From: Diprion similis
Taxonomy: Eukaryota; Arthropoda; Insecta; Hymenoptera; Diprionidae
DNA: 64,000 nucleotides
Direction of reading: 5' to 3'
NCBI RefSeq assembly: GCF_021155765.1
Contig: NC_060112.1
Span: forward strand, 25,138,001 to 25,202,000
The notes below the pieces were generated by a model. The model was not told the origin of the DNA and searched no databases. It saw only the letters and a list, made by a program, of their open reading frames with translations. How positions within the stretch are numbered: position 1 is the stretch's first letter; every line of letters starts with the position of its first letter. Of this stretch, positions 10,447 through 45,734 are shown piece after piece. The translations under genes were made by a program, and so were the position numbers.

Positions 10447-13328
10447 ATGAAAGTGACTGTGACCACGTTGAGCGATGACATCTTTGTACTCGATGTCAGC
10501 GAGGAGCTGGAGCTCGAAAATTTCAAGGCGTTCTGCGAAATTGAAAGCGGTTTTCCGGCCCATGAAATCGTGATTGCATTCAACGGTCGTCCGTTAATGG
10601 ACGACAAAAAACCTCTAAAGGAGCATGGAATCAAAGACGGGGATGTGGTCATTTTACAGCACATGCAACAGAGCGGTTCTGGACTTAGTTTGCAGGCGTT
10701 CGATGGAGGTTGGAGTTCTCACTAGTTTTGCTAAACGGCAAATTTTCACCACATTCTTCCATTTCTTTGCATTTTTTTCCCCTATCAAAATTTATCAAGG
10801 TGTTCAAATTTACCCTTTTCTACTTTATTATACTGCACTTCATTCAGTCAATTTACTGAAGTTTTTATTTATTTACAAGTTGTTTACATCACGTTGACGG
10901 GAGAATGTTTACAACGAGTATTTAGCAAAAACAAACAAAAAGACAAACTTTTGCTTACATTTGAATCTCAACAATCATATAATTCATTTTTCATCTAATC
11001 TCGAGTCTTGTGACTCAATTCAGCGCAATTTTATACATTCAATTTTTGCTGATCACCGGTTACTTTGTTGATGAATTCTATTTATAAATCACGACAAACT
11101 TTATACTTTTATATAATGCTACAGCAACGATCTATGTATACCCATAATCTGCTTGTCACTGTTGCTATTTCTGTTTTCCATTTTCTTTTTGACTTGCACA
11201 AAACGAACGGCTTTTTCATTATTTTGCACACGAAATTTTATATGAATAGAGCAAAAACATTTATTTTGACATTATTCTCATACTTGGATAAGCTTTGTTT
11301 GTTGGACGCGAATTGAGCTTCGAGCTTTGATGTCAAAAATAAATGATTGAAACTCTCTGCATTCACCATAGTTGATCAGAGGCTGTTTAATTCTAAGATT
11401 CACAAATTTAGCTGTACCTACGTTGGACTTCAGCGCGATTAGGATTCCTGGATCTTCAAGTAGAGCCGCGCCAAGTTCAAGCGGAGCTGCAGCACCGCAG
11501 AGACCTCAGAATTCACGTAGCGAGGATGACCCTGTTATGATCAGAGACATGTTCCTCGCTAATCCAGATCAGCTAGCTTTACTTAAACAAAATAATCCCA
11601 GGCTAGCAGATGCTTTACTTTCTGGGAACATTGGTAAGAATTTTAAGCTTAGGTTTGAAACTTAAACCAATTGCAGATAGTATAAACAAATATACTTTAC
11701 TGAAAATCGTTGAATTTAAATTTTATACCTAAATTTTATTACAGAAAGGTTTTCGAATGTCTTAAAGGAACAAATTAAATCACGCGAAGAACGCCAAGTC
11801 CAGCGTGTAAGGATGATGAACGCAGATCCTTTTGACACAGAAACTCAACGACTTATAGCAGAAGAGATAAGACAGAAAAATATCGAGGCAAACATGGAGG
11901 CAGCTATGGAATATAATCCTGAAACATTTGGGACTGTAGTTATGCTCTACATAAATTGTAAAGTAAACGGTTTTCCGGTGAAAGCGTTTATTGATTCAGG
12001 TAATTCCAGTACCAGTTAAAATATTATGGATAGCTATCCAAGTTGAAGGTCAAGTTTATTCACAGCCTTGCTAAATTTAAACGTTGCAGAATCCAAGGGT
12101 GACCGAATAACTTTCGCTCGACACATAAACAGTTTAATAATAGAACTCGCCTTTATCTGACTATCCAACCCAGTTTAAACTTAGAAATGCATGGCAAGAA
12201 ATTTTACGAACTTTAAAAATGCATCTCACGATAATTCTCATTGTCTGATCAATTCCACTCCACAAACAGGTGCTCAAACTACAATTATGTCTGCCGCGTG
12301 TGCAGAACGTTGTCACATAATGCGTTTGGTGGATTCGAGGTGGGCAGGTGTGGCGAAAGGTGTAGGAGTGCAAAAAATCATTGGCCGTATCCATATGGTA
12401 CAGATACAGATAGGTCAAGATCACCTGACGACATCTTTCAGTGTGCTTGAAGAACAGCCAATGGACATGCTACTTGGTCTTGATATGCTCAAAAGACATC
12501 AGTGTTGCATCGACCTGAAAAAAAACATACTAAATATTGGTACAACTGGAACTGAAACTCCGTTTTTAACTGAGGGTGAGTAAGGAATATACTTAATAAT
12601 GGTTTAAACATAGACGTCTGATGACATGTCACACCTCATATTGTTCTTTTCAACATTGATACAGGCGAACTACCAGAATGTGCAAGGCTGAGTGGAAATA
12701 GTGATGAATCCTTAGACGACAGAGATTTGCAAAGAGCATTAGAAGATAGTTCAAAGGATGCTAAAAAACAAAAGCAGCAGGGTAAGTATGTATCTGTCCG
12801 GGCTTCCCCAACTTCCTAAATCCCATTCCCTAAAATTTACAACATACAGAAAATATTCTAATCTTGTCCATGTACGTTATCATTTTATATCAAATTTCAT
12901 ATAATAATCAGCAAAGTTGCACTGAAGTGCTTGATAACGTTAAAGCTTATCAAGTGATTAAAATCACCTCTTCGATATTCCTTTCCTGCTTGCCTGGACA
13001 GCTTCAGAAATGTCAGAAATGCTCTTGATAAACATGTGTTTACGTTTCCTAACTGTTAAGTTCCGGTAATCATGATTGCCTGATTTGCTTTTCAGACGGG
13101 CCAAGCGCAAGTAATAGTCCAATGAATGTCACACCATCAATGTCGTCGAGCACGACAACAACTTTAGAAACAACCGTTCTTCCACATGACCCCTTCACAG
13201 ATGGTACAGTAAAAGAGATTGAAGCCTTAGGTTTTACACGCGCGCAGGTCATTTCAGAATTACGTCGATTTAACGGAGACAAGGCTCAAGCTACAGCTGC
13301 GCTGTTTGCTAAATCATTGAAATTCTAA
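10447..13328 (+). CDS. rngo: DDI1/rngo ubiquitin-shuttle aspartic protease
   Basis: DNA-damage-inducible 1 homologue (fly: rings lost), a cytosolic proteasome-shuttle protein with a retropepsin-like protease domain. It cleaves highly ubiquitinated substrates; in worms and mammals it activates the SKN-1/NRF1 proteasome-gene regulator. Six exons: 10447-10708, 11412-11633, 11745-11999, 12270-12575, 12665-12781 and 13096-13328; 464 residues. All later introns share phase 1. The exon 1/2 junction (GAG|GTTGGA donor) is the least certain. Domains: ubiquitin-like at about 1-76 ([10 protein letters not shown] near its end), a helical domain at about 150-225, then the protease with catalytic motif DSGAQTT (Asp245, split by the exon 3/4 junction) and [16 protein letters not shown]-like [10 protein letters not shown] follows, then a C-terminal UBA ([11 protein letters not shown]). 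The start is the ATG at 10447. An in-frame GTG at 10429 was not used. AATAAA lies at 13361. Confidence 0.95.
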
Positions 13329-14498: not shown

Positions 14499-16123
14499 CT
14501 AATTTTTCTTTGGGAGTTCGTCCGCTCCCCATTTGATCTCGACCATTTTTCCGCTGCGAGCAGACTCCTCACAAGCTGTCGCAATCTTACTGACTGCCAG
14601 AGTTTCTCTGTAGTCAACAATTGATTCTGCCTTTCCATGAACGATGTCTAAGAAGTGCTCCATTTCCGTCTGATAAGCATTGCGGTAACGACTAGGGAAG
14701 CTGTACCAAATCGGTGCGGTGGTAAGCCCATTTAATCCATACTGAGTTTCGACACAGTGAATCGGCTGCTCGTTGGTGGCTGTGAGCATACCCTTGGGAC
14801 CGAAAACTTCCAATCGCTGATCGTAACCATAATTGCAGTTTCGGGACAGATCAACTATTCCTAAAGTTCCCGAGGGGAAGTAGAGGGTAGCGGCGACAGT
14901 GTCGTGATCGTCCAAAGCTTTGATTTCAGGAATGTGAGTGTGTGCTTGTACGGCAACCTGAAATGTTTATGAAATCGTTATAGCTAGAACACTTGGTTAG
15001 TGATTTGAAATAATTACCTTAATGGGGTATTCTCCAATGATCCAAGTCATCATATCAATGTCATGGACCATACAGTCGTGGAAGATACCGCCTGAAGTTC
15101 TCAGGTACTCAATAGAAGGTAGCGGAGAGTCCCGGGAGCAAACTTTGATGGTTTGAACATGGCCGACTTCACCTTTTTGCACACGTTGCCTCACCGCACC
15201 GTAGCTTGGGTCGAAACGCCTGTTGAAAGCACAGAAGAGTGGCTTTCCAACAGCCTTGGCGGTTTCGTAGCACTTGACACTATTTTCACGCGACTCGGCA
15301 ATGGGTTTTTCGCAGAAGACAGCCTTCTTAGCTTTTAAAGATTCAACCACGATTTCCTCATGAGTGAAAGTTGGAGAAGCGACGACAACAACGTCAACTC
15401 TAAGAAAAGAAACAAAAATGTTTAGCAAAACGGTCTTCTCAAATTGAATGCCAAGTCAATTGATTATAATATATTACTTGGGATCCTTGAACACAGCGCT
15501 GGACTGTTTACTGTTTAGGAAAGTAGCGTCATTGAGTCCCCAGAACTCCTTCAAAGCTGCCCACTTGGATTCGACATCGTCGACAACATAGATAATCTTA
15601 ACACGAGGATTGCGAGCCAAAGATGATAAGTGAATGGTTCCGGCACGGCCAAGTCCAAAAATAGCCAAATTCAGAACTTTCTCACCTGTTCTGCTTGACT
15701 TTAAGGCTACATTGTCTTCGTAGCTGCAGAAATAAATTAAGCACTTAGACAAGATAGTATATTAATCGTCTAATTGTAAGAACTGTTCTCTCAAGTAATG
15801 CTCCGCAACTGCAGAAATAAAATAAGCACTTAGACAAGATAGTATATTAATCGTCTAATTGTAAGAACTGTGTTCACAAGTAATGCCACAGTCGAAATTC
15901 AAACATTGAAGAGAAGAAGTAGCAATTCCTATTCGTCATTGATTATTTCAACCATTATGAAAGTCTAATATATGACTCGAGGGTTGCTTCGGAGCTTAAA
16001 TGACTAGAAACATTGTGCGCAATGTAGACGTATTACTTACATCTTGTACAGGTAGTCCTCTGGTGGCGGCGTCGGTGTGGGCTGAACGTAGGGCGAAGCT
16101 TCTTTGAATTTTATGGTGGCCAT
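14499..16123 (-). CDS. Myo-inositol 2-dehydrogenase-like oxidoreductase (Gfo/Idh/MocA family)
   Basis: An NAD(P)-dependent sugar/polyol dehydrogenase, probably cytosolic; myo-inositol is the likely but unproven substrate. Four exons: 16041-16123, 15478-15723, 15018-15399 and 14499-14957; 389 residues. All junctions keep phase. The Rossmann fold starts near residue 45 with GLGRAG (51-56). CEKP (Lys141) and D218-x3-H222 in FHDCMVHDID match the Lys, Asp and His of bacterial inositol dehydrogenases. The C-terminal half (LEVFGPKGM and following) is the usual alpha/beta substrate domain. Residues 1-44 are an extra N-terminal part with a proline-rich PTPTPPPEDYLYK stretch absent from bacterial enzymes. 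A diverged copy of exon 1 lies at 19113-19196 upstream, and the acceptor of exon 2 sits in a tandem duplication. Family is secure; exact substrate is not. Confidence 0.92.
15724..15888. repeat. 85-bp tandem duplication covering an intron acceptor
   Basis: Copy 1 (15724-15808) and copy 2 (15809-about 15888) are nearly identical with an 85-bp period. Both begin with CTGCAGAAATAAA and share a long identical core, including ttagacaagatagtatat and taattgtaagaactgt. On the minus strand each copy ends in TTATTTCTGCAG, so the 3' splice site of exon 2 of the inositol dehydrogenase-like gene exists twice. Use of the upstream site would add about 85 bases that quickly meet an in-frame stop. Confidence 0.9.
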
Positions 16124-19112
16124 GGCGGACTAGAAGTTTGATCTTACGTTGAGACTGAACAAGTAGCCCAATGTTGAGCGATGTTCAATATATGCATTTC
16201 TTTAAATGGAGTGGGGAGGTATCTTTCCTAAAGCTAATCTCTTTATATTGCCACATCAGAGTTTAGAGAAAAAAAGAGAACATCTGTTGGACGTAATGTA
16301 TTTATGTTCAATGATTGATAACGCGGGATTGACGAACGTTGATTTATGTAACATTTAGTAATTATTAGATTACATTGGAAGCACGCAGGGTGTTTGTTAT
16401 ATTTAGCAGTATAATTTTAAATACGCTACAATGCTTTCCGGAACAAGTATTGGTTCCATTGTCAATCATGCTGAATAAAACCAAGTTAACAGCAGTAAAC
16501 AAATCTGCCCAAACTTTTCTCAGAAGCCAAATTCTGATTGTAACGTTGATCTTCGATCTCTTCCTCTGCGTAACTGTGAGTGCATGATCTATGTGTAACG
16601 ATATACAATCTTGCTGTTATATAATACTGCCAAAGTTTATAATAATAAATATCAAATATTATATCCTTTATACAGGACCAGTTCAAATCCAATCCTAACT
16701 AATAATTGCAAATGATTTTTGAAATCTTTGAAGAAACGAACGTGTTTCTCAACTTGATCAGTATTAAAATAATGTGACCTGTCTGCTTATTTTCATTAAT
16801 TACTCCTATGGTGGTTCATATAATTTCCTAAAGTCCAAACGGAGTAGAATGAAAATCACGTATTGTAAGTTTCCTCAAGGTATTTGCACGGTGGTAAAAT
16901 TGACTTTTCTGTATATTCAAATAATCAGTAATTGCTTGATACAATTGTGTCAAACAATGATTAATTCCCTCCTCTTCTATTATATTGGTATCGTTACTTT
17001 TATAGCATGCGCATCATTCGAGCAATAAAAAAATGATTTATGGTACCGATATTATTAAAGATGTTCTGATTATCTGGATCGGTATGAAATTATGCTTCAT
17101 ACTTGTAGATACAAATATGTATTGGACTTCTAAATTATACGACTGAGAGTCCTGTATAAAAAAAACTTTTAATACTGATGTGTTATGAATTATGCAATCT
17201 GAAGATATTATTAATGCTTCCAATTTAATCCAAGAAATACGTAATTCAGGATTATATCATTAATTACAGATTAGAACTAATTTGACAAAATATCAACATG
17301 TCTTGATGCACCGAACGTTCTGCTGCTCGCAGCTATTCTGTCCTTCATTTACTTTATACAGATTATAAAAATGCTTCCTATACCCATGCAAGTGTGCTAT
17401 CATAAAACGAGTCCAGTAATTGTTCTCTGTCAACTTCTATTCTTAAATAACAAAGTATAAGAATCTCAAGCACTTCCAGCCACTCATAGTGGAATTCATC
17501 ACCTCAGCTGAAATCAGAATTTCAAAAGCAAGATAATTCCGGTTCTATCATGATACGCATCATCAAAATTTTTTTTCAGTTCACTCGATTCTGGTAATAA
17601 CTAGTTCCTCGATAGTACAAAGTAAGGGGAGATTGTTAGTTCTGGAAATTTCTATAAATATTCCACGGTCTCTTGTCTACGTCACTCAATTCCCAAATCA
17701 CTGACCTTAAGTTGTTTGTTTCACACAGAGTTGGCTTATTACATCTTACAACTTATCCTTGGCGATCTAACAAGACCTTAGCTGACGTTACTGTCAGATA
17801 TTCAAAGAATGTTCAATATGAACTCATTGAAATATTATTTATCAGTGTTGTGTTCAGCATTGGATTCAAAGTCTTGTATAAGTCTGAATGTTTTAGGTAA
17901 AAAACCCAGATAGTCTTTCATGTGCCTCTTAGAAATTCTGTTCAGAATCAGTGTCAGGACTCGCAATAGACGATAATCCACTTGTTAATCCATGTTCAAA
18001 ATCATTTCAAAATAAGCCCATTCTCCTCAATCTGCCACAATTTTATTTTTCATTCCTTCAACTATATCTCAGAAACGCTTCATCTCCCTTTGACTGAGCA
18101 TCGCAGTAAGTGGATAAAACAACTCTGCTAAATTCATGTGGTATCAGCTGTTGCTGTTAACTGTTAACTGTTAACTCTCCACCTGTGTGTTTAACTGCTA
18201 ATTAATTTCTAATCATACATCGATTTTTCCCAACAAGAATTTCATTGCGTAACATAATTCAAGTCCAATGAATGATAATGTAATGCTTTTATCAAGTTTA
18301 AGTTGTGTAATATTTAGTCGATAAAACTTATCATACGTTAGGGATTACGTAGCTGTAATATCTCTGACGATTCGTTTTTTATTTCAGAGTTGACAAACGA
18401 CCGTCTTAATCTCTCATACGATACACTGAACTGGAACCATAATCAAACTCTTTTCTTAAGGTCATTGTTCGGTACATGATCTCTGATCTTGGCAATTGCT
18501 CAGGGTAATCGATTTTTGTATAGATCTATTAAAAGATTTCTTTATACCCATTTTAATTGATACTATAATATGCATATTCTTTATGATCCGAAATATCTTG
18601 ATCCTACTGCACTTATCATTATATCCAACTCACACTAATTTACAGATCATACAGCTGGTCATTCTTTAAAATACCTACCATTTTTAAAAATTCTCAAATT
18701 CAAATACTGAAGAATACCCTTTACGCAAGTATAACAGTTTCAAAGTTCTGATCATTGTCAAATATGAATTCAACTTTAATCACTGTATCAAATATAATTG
18801 AGTACTATCGTAGATTGTATCGCGCAGCTTGAGATCTCATAAGTAGCTTATTAAAAGATAGACTCATTAGTGCATTGTTAAATTTTGTTTCAATATCAAC
18901 TGTAATATTGAGTGAGAAAAATAAATATTGGATATCATGGGAATAAACGAGAGTGGATTACTTATCATGGGTAGTGAGGTAATAATTCACACGCCAATTT
19001 CTTGTTGATAAATATCCTATCTACTACTAGCCTATCATAGGACCAAACACCTCCAAACGTTGACAGTAACCATGAACATCACAACGTGACTATTTGACTA
19101 TATGACTACTTT
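16124..19112. other. Upstream region between the two copies of the dehydrogenase first exon
   Basis: AT-rich sequence, 3 kb. It should contain the promoter and 5' leader of the inositol dehydrogenase-like gene at its left end. I looked for degenerate copies of the Rossmann, EKP or HDID exons on the minus strand and found none. A CTGTTAA triplet repeat lies at 18153-18176. No other gene is visible. Confidence 0.5.
18153..18176. repeat. Three tandem CTGTTAA units
   Basis: A short 7-bp tandem repeat, three full copies, in intergenic DNA. It has no evident function. Confidence 0.75.
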
Positions 19113-19196
19113 CGCCTTGTAGAGATAATCCTCCGGAGGTGGATCAGGTCTAGGCTGAGTATAAGGGAAAGCATCTTTGAACTTGACAGTAGCCAT
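19113..19196 (-). pseudogene. Diverged duplicate of the inositol dehydrogenase first exon (donor lost) or alternative first exon
   Basis: Reading down from the ATG at 19196, this encodes MATVKFKDAFPYTQP then RPDPPPEDYLYK. It matches exon 1 of the gene at 14499-16123 in 21 of 27 residues, without gaps. Of 19 changed codons, 13 are silent, so the copy evolved under protein constraint for some time. The 5' flanks of the two exons also look related. At the end, the real exon has AAGAT|GTAAGT while the copy has AAGGCGAAAGT: the donor GT is GA. The frame then runs to a TAG after GTA GTC ATA. The nearest other GT (AAA|GTAGTC) would give the wrong phase for exon 2. It is either a formerly used alternative first exon, now dead, or the 5' stump of a lost paralogue. 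Confidence 0.65.
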
Positions 19197-20651: not shown

Positions 20652-28502
<7,851 letters not shown>

Positions 28503-28587
28503 ATTGATGGTTTGGAAAATGGGATAATTTAAATAACTTTATATAAAATCAAGGTCTCTTCTAGTTAGACTCAGATCCAGAGACATA

Positions 28588-44691: not shown

Positions 44692-45362
<671 letters not shown>

Positions 45363-45734
45363 ATGCCACCCAAGGCGAGCGGCAAGGCTGCGAAGAAGGC
45401 TGGAAAAGCGCAGAAAAACATTTCGAAGGGCGACAAGAAGAAGAAGCGTAAGAGGAAGGAGAGTTACGCTATCTACATCTACAAAGTGCTGAAGCAAGTC
45501 CATCCCGATACCGGTATTTCGAGCAAAGCTATGAGCATCATGAACAGCTTCGTCAACGACATTTTTGAGCGTATAGCTGCTGAATCATCACGTCTTGCTC
45601 ACTACAACAAACGCTCGACGATAACTTCTCGGGAGATTCAAACTGCTGTCCGACTTCTACTTCCTGGAGAACTTGCCAAGCACGCAGTCAGTGAAGGCAC
45701 AAAGGCAGTCACGAAATACACCAGCTCCAAATAA
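45363..45734 (+). CDS. His2B: Histone H2B (replication-dependent)
   Basis: A core nucleosomal histone, intronless, 123 residues, as in other insects. It starts [15 protein letters not shown] at the ATG at 45363. It contains the basic repression stretch [20 protein letters not shown] and the histone-fold motif [20 protein letters not shown], and ends AVTKYTSSK with the conserved C-terminal ubiquitination lysine region. It is divergent from H2A and has its own 3' stem-loop 27 bp after the stop. Confidence 0.98.

Follow-up and report, generated by a model that had tools for sequence, protein, structure and literature searches.

A conserved exon copy upstream of an inositol-2-dehydrogenase-like gene in Diprion similis, read as part of a probable tandem-duplicate pseudogene

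Why should the first exon of a dehydrogenase gene occur a second time upstream of that gene, conserved in protein and without its splice donor? The question is raised by a 64,000-nucleotide stretch of the Diprion similis genome (NC_060112.1, positions 25,138,001 to 25,202,000), referred to here as the window, for which a first-pass annotation had offered two explanations, a former pair of alternative promoters or a lost paralogue. Judged from sequence comparison, the exon copy very probably (at roughly 93%) belongs to a tandem-duplicate pseudogene, here called relic B, of the intact gene, here called gene A.

Gene A (16123-14499, minus strand) comprises four exons, with splice sites chosen by hand, which together encode a 389-aa Gfo/Idh/MocA protein that is inositol-2-dehydrogenase-like and has no internal stops. 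The exon model is as follows.

16041 to 16123, minus strand: gene A exon 1, 83 bases, ending in phase 2, donor GTAAGT
15478 to 15723, minus strand: gene A exon 2
15018 to 15399, minus strand: gene A exon 3
14499 to 14957, minus strand: gene A exon 4, running to the stop codon

Matches to PF01408 (75 bits, cut-off 24) and PF02894 (84.2 bits, cut-off 22.9) place the protein among the Gfo/Idh/MocA oxidoreductases. The profile for inositol 2-dehydrogenase IolG, TIGR04380, aligns with residues 45-376 at an E value of 2.8e-92, but the score of 309.1 bits lies below the equivalog cut-off of 355, and the protein does not qualify as an IolG equivalog. The Protein Data Bank holds 73 distinct matching sequences, and among the best 60 of these 73 the top names are dehydrogenase, inositol 2-dehydrogenase and myo-inositol dehydrogenase. 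Gene A matches solved inositol dehydrogenases, for example, 4hkt and 3euw, and differs from IolG in its 44-residue N-terminal extension as well as in its TIGR04380 score under the equivalog cut-off. Intron 1 of gene A contains an 85-base tandem duplication (15716-15885, 92% identical) in which the 3' splice site is repeated together with the first 8 bases of exon 2; use of the distal copy of this site would lead to an early stop, as read by eye.

The copy of exon 1 lies in the same orientation, 3 kb upstream of gene A.

19114 to 19196, minus strand: relic B exon 1, open over 27 homologous codons, donor GA

The homologous codons occupy 19196-19116, followed by the two bases GC that precede the old exon boundary. 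The similarity is found by tblastn at E values of 1.5e-8 in the window and 5.5e-6 in a whole-genome search. We reproduce the first-pass coordinates and counts in full: 21 of 27 residues are identical to those of gene A exon 1, and 13 of the 19 changed codons are silent. At the level of bases, 24 of 81 differ, distributed as 3, 4, and 17 over the first, second, and third codon positions. Third-position GC is 0.67 in gene A exon 1 and 0.41 in the copy, and 0.51 over all of gene A.

The loss of the donor is likewise borne out, the AT/GTAAGT of gene A corresponding to GC/GAAAGT in relic B, where GT has become GA. From its start the frame of relic B exon 1 runs for 32 codons (19196-19101) and then meets a stop. 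It had been claimed that no other GT provides the phase needed for exon 2. This holds from the old boundary to the first stop, but not within the exon itself, where phase-2 sites comprise a weak GT at base 14 of the open reading frame (CAA/GTTCAA) and a GC at base 41.

The copy of exon 1 is not isolated. About 150 homologous bases upstream of it and two pieces of exon 4 downstream of it, all of which the first-pass annotation had omitted, accompany it.

16125 to 16274, minus strand: gene A 5' flank shared with relic B, 97 of 155 alignment columns identical, 0 of 500 shuffles reaching the score
19198 to 19351, minus strand: relic B 5' flank, aligned to the gene A flank
19102 to 19113, minus strand: presumed deletion junction region, GAAAGTAG, donor-like but mutated, followed by the first TAGTCA
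19039 to 19101, minus strand: relic B first exon 4 piece, gene A residues 271-291, 14 of 21 identical
18037 to 18109, minus strand: relic B second exon 4 piece, residues 327-351, gene A CDS bases 981-1052

The 5' flank alignment covers about 150 bases before both start codons and stops one base short of each. Its score of 70.5 compares with maxima of 62 among the 500 shuffles and 48.5 over 82 other pieces of the window, and in a strict version of the test none of 1000 shuffles reached the score. Under stricter gap costs, the raw alignment of the upstream regions yields a 16-base match over 1.4 kb and a 43-base part over 200 bases. We presume that the flank of relic B represents promoter and 5' untranslated region.

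The first exon 4 piece begins 12 bases beyond the relic B exon 1 boundary. Its 3' 33 bases are convincing, and its 5' 30 bases are diverged, weakly similar, and contain a TAG. When the gene A protein is compared with the whole window by tblastn, the piece is returned at an E value of 0.043. Its ungapped score of 57 exceeded all 200 values obtained by shuffling the 3-kb interval (maximum, 50) and all 1000 obtained by shuffling the adjoining 100 bases (maximum, 38). When the window was divided into pieces of 100 bases on both strands, with gene A excluded (n = 1240), the piece starting at 19001 ranked first with a score of 54, the one at 18001 (minus strand) ranked second with 43, and the third scored 38.

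The second exon 4 piece carries a 1-base insertion at 18094, which shifts the frame, and an in-frame TGA. Its gapped DNA score of 55 was reached in 0 of 300 shuffles and again in 0 of 1500 (maximum, 41.5; Gumbel P of about 5e-6), the next best score being 37 among 42 3-kb chunk-strands with gene A itself excluded. By the ungapped measure, 2 of 200 shuffles reached its score of 43 when residues 28-389 served as the query and the first piece was omitted; with residues 292-389 alone as the query, none of 200 did. The two pieces are separated by 929 bases (18110-19038), compared with 107 in gene A, and this extra sequence of about 0.8 kb may stem from an ancient insertion or represent an intron missing from gene A. 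Over 16200-19030, no other copy scored in a genome search that skips simple repeats and very common words and that a common transposon could therefore escape.

These remains bear directly on the alternative promoter. Had the 5' flank and exon 1 been duplicated alone, relic B would represent a dead former promoter and first exon of gene A, and its well-preserved flank and exon, correctly oriented 3 kb upstream, do resemble an alternative first exon. Such an exon, however, would not be expected to be followed by two pieces of exon 4 on the same strand and in order, nor does relic B, past the old boundary and before the first stop, offer a phase-2 donor for joining exon 2. We therefore depart from the suggestion of former alternative promoters, which we consider highly improbable. 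The other suggestion, a lost paralogue of which the first exon survives, is supported, with the addition that the 5' flank and two exon 4 pieces survive as well, in order.

The remaining parts of gene A left no signal on the minus strand of 16124-19060: the scores of exon 2, exon 3, the 5' part of exon 4, the three introns, and the 3' untranslated region were reached by 111, 19, 77, 90, 92, and 20 of 200 shuffles and by 46 of 100, respectively. The exons were also scored on the plus strand, without shuffles. Nor was there a signal for residues 292-326 in 18110-19038 (116 of 300 shuffles reaching the score) or for residues 352-389 in 16800-18036 (252 of 300). Upstream of relic B, a minus-strand match to exons 2 to the 5' part of exon 4 scored 37, a value that 7 of 300 shuffles reached; the plus strand gave 23.5, reached by 287 of 300. 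The minus-strand match, at 19397-19298, is taken as chance, since it has many gaps and lies partly within the conserved 5' flank. Because no remnant of exons 2 and 3 could be detected, we infer a deletion in relic B.

The place where the two remaining coding parts meet bears on whether relic B could be a processed, that is, reverse-transcribed, copy. Gene A intron sequence is unrecognizable in the interval, as such an origin would predict, but relic B adjoins gene A in the same orientation, and the bases past the edge of exon 1, GAAAGTAG, resemble the gene A donor, GTAAGTAA. From exon 1 the sequence passes through these donor-like bases into the middle of exon 4, away from any splice site; exons 2 and 3 are missing, and the original exon join is not visible. 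The 150 bases of upstream homology also count against a processed copy, though a 5' untranslated region of that length would permit it. Taken together, reverse transcription appears a very unlikely origin. Three copies of TAGTCA, at a spacing of 8 bases, extend from the junction region into the first exon 4 piece.

How long the second gene was maintained is a separate matter. The first-pass annotation had concluded from the silent changes that the exon copy was under selection. This is probably right, given the saturated third positions and the simulations described below, but the silent-codon count alone is insufficient, because the constraint on gene A itself also removes replacement changes; half of the divergence may stem from gene A, and the count therefore cannot by itself show constraint on relic B. 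Third positions of the exon 1 pair are near saturation (17 of 27 differ), with a dN of 0.158 and an undefined NG86 dS. Since the protein is conserved all the same, relic B probably functioned as a gene over most of its existence.

We simulated the pair with gene A constrained throughout (replacement acceptance, 0.1) and B constrained likewise except over a set final share of its history, when it evolved neutrally, using the gene A exon as a stand-in for the ancestor, a kappa of 2, and 1500 runs at each of 5 divergences. A run was counted when it differed at 17 or more third positions and at no more than 7 other sites and kept 21 or more identical residues, thresholds that were taken from the data. 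With B neutral throughout or for half its time, no run qualified in any setting. The qualifying fraction was at most 0.0033 with B neutral for the last quarter, at most 0.021 for the last tenth, and at most 0.061 when B was never neutral. Within this simple model and for this short exon, the simulation favors long constraint and a late death of relic B.

The second exon 4 piece presents a different pattern, with differences flat across codon positions (8, 6, and 7 of 24). Third positions account for 17 of 24 differences in exon 1 and for 7 of 21 in this piece (Fisher P of 0.017), and first and second positions differ at 7 of 54 sites versus 14 of 48 (P of 0.052). The contrast can be accounted for by a late neutral phase in a region of the protein that is less conserved; that exon 1 kept a function is the less likely cause. 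Such a function would mean that, after the enzyme part had been deleted, the 5' flank and exon 1 stayed under selection, the flank and 32-codon frame (19196-19101) still making a short peptide, which would carry PPPEDYLYK as an isolated element close to its end, or the flank acting as an enhancer or other regulatory element of gene A. The absence of stops and frameshifts from exon 1, its strong third-position bias, which the second exon 4 piece lacks, and the still recognizable 5' flank are all compatible with this; if true, retained selection would explain a protein-constrained exon 1 beside a neutral-looking later piece of exon 4. Against it, the exon 1 sample is short (81 bases), and residues 327-351 are only moderately conserved, gene A sharing about 8 of 25 of them with 3ezy, its best solved match, so that a live gene could give the same contrast. 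On balance we regard selection on a surviving peptide, or on a regulatory flank, as highly improbable.

Back-translated and searched with zero mismatches, the PPPEDYLYK element, for which the first-pass annotation suggested a possible role of its own, occurs at two places in the 269-Mb genome, gene A and relic B, and the reversed control gives none. A genome search with the gene A protein produced 8 matches among the best candidates scored, namely, the four exons, the relic B copy, and three weak matches of 24 to 27% identity on two other contigs. The claim that the element is absent from bacterial enzymes held over the six frames of 36 bacterial loci, which returned no match. Bacterial alignments to gene A start at residue 39 or later in 33 of 36 cases and at residues 21, 30, and 31 in the other three.

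As a separate observation, gene A residues 14-44 (16084-16041 plus 15723-15675), QPTPTPPPEDYLYKIYEDNVALKSSRTGEKV, resemble the tail found at the very C terminus of several bacterial relatives, at about 35 to 42% identity over 29 to 34 residues and a best tblastn E value of 0.003; 16 of the 36 bacterial loci, many of them closely alike, fall below 0.1. Against four tails picked after the matches had been seen, 0, 0, 0, and 1 of 2000 shuffles reached the score. A profile built from 10 tails scored 3.8 bits, a value reached by 13 of 3000 shuffles, and an unrelated stretch of gene A gave 2.5, whereas the score against the gene A tail itself was reached by 304 of 2000 shuffles. None of the curated profiles matched the extension, and the sole solved chain returned was a helicase at an E value of 0.096. 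The extension may descend from a former head-to-tail fusion of two such enzymes, or the resemblance could be due to chance.

Returning to the tandem-duplicate pseudogene, the 5' flank, exon 1, and the two exon 4 pieces of relic B are each similar to gene A beyond chance, and all lie on one strand in the gene order of gene A, which is why we read relic B as a duplicate of the whole gene. Its homology to the intact gene extends beyond one exon, and it bears disabling changes: exons 2 and 3 are undetectable, the donor is GA, and a frameshift and a TGA interrupt the second exon 4 piece. We propose that the gene was duplicated long ago, leaving two dehydrogenase genes head to tail with separate promoters, and that protein constraint maintained both until their silent sites were close to saturated. 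The upstream gene would then have lost its function, with a deletion that began shortly after the start of intron 1 and ended midway through exon 4, so that 1182 bases in the gene A arrangement would correspond to 12 in B, and the TAGTCA copies at the join would be end-joining filler or slippage. With GT mutated to GA at the start of the intron and the remainder of the intron gone, exon 1 would be left without a working donor. As far as its sequence indicates, relic B has no apparent present function.

In these respects relic B resembles other duplicated (non-processed) pseudogenes, since it adjoins its intact paralogue in the same orientation, shares the 5' flank, and is truncated, frameshifted, and stopped; it differs from them in no point of principle, although it keeps only the 5' flank, exon 1, and two pieces of exon 4, with exon 1 the best preserved of these. 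A duplicate gene that persists and then decays by deletion is an established outcome, and relic B is ordinary gene loss after duplication. Among the full-text matches listed in a literature search, no title concerned this locus or insect inositol 2-dehydrogenase paralogues; two bee papers among these matches mention inositol 2-dehydrogenase by name (PMC8298419, PMC10090045).

The surroundings of the locus contain several further open frames. One at 12185-12583 (plus strand) is like part of what we take, from its translation, to be DDI1, and those at 20652-28538 (minus strand) are like parts of what is presumably WDR33. Two divergent frames at 44692-45734 are presumably histones H2A (minus strand) and H2B (plus strand), again named from their translations. 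Contig 1 of the 60 contigs that make up the genome starts with TTAGG telomere-type repeats, as would suit an insect.

For annotation more generally, the case advises caution: where a lone conserved exon is met, weaker remains should first be sought nearby. The DDI1-like and WDR33-like frames are useful as synteny anchors and make relic B a comparative marker, in that relatives branching before the loss should hold an intact second gene between them. Ultimately, relic B suggests that the lineage of Diprion similis long kept two dehydrogenase genes of the gene A type and then lost one.
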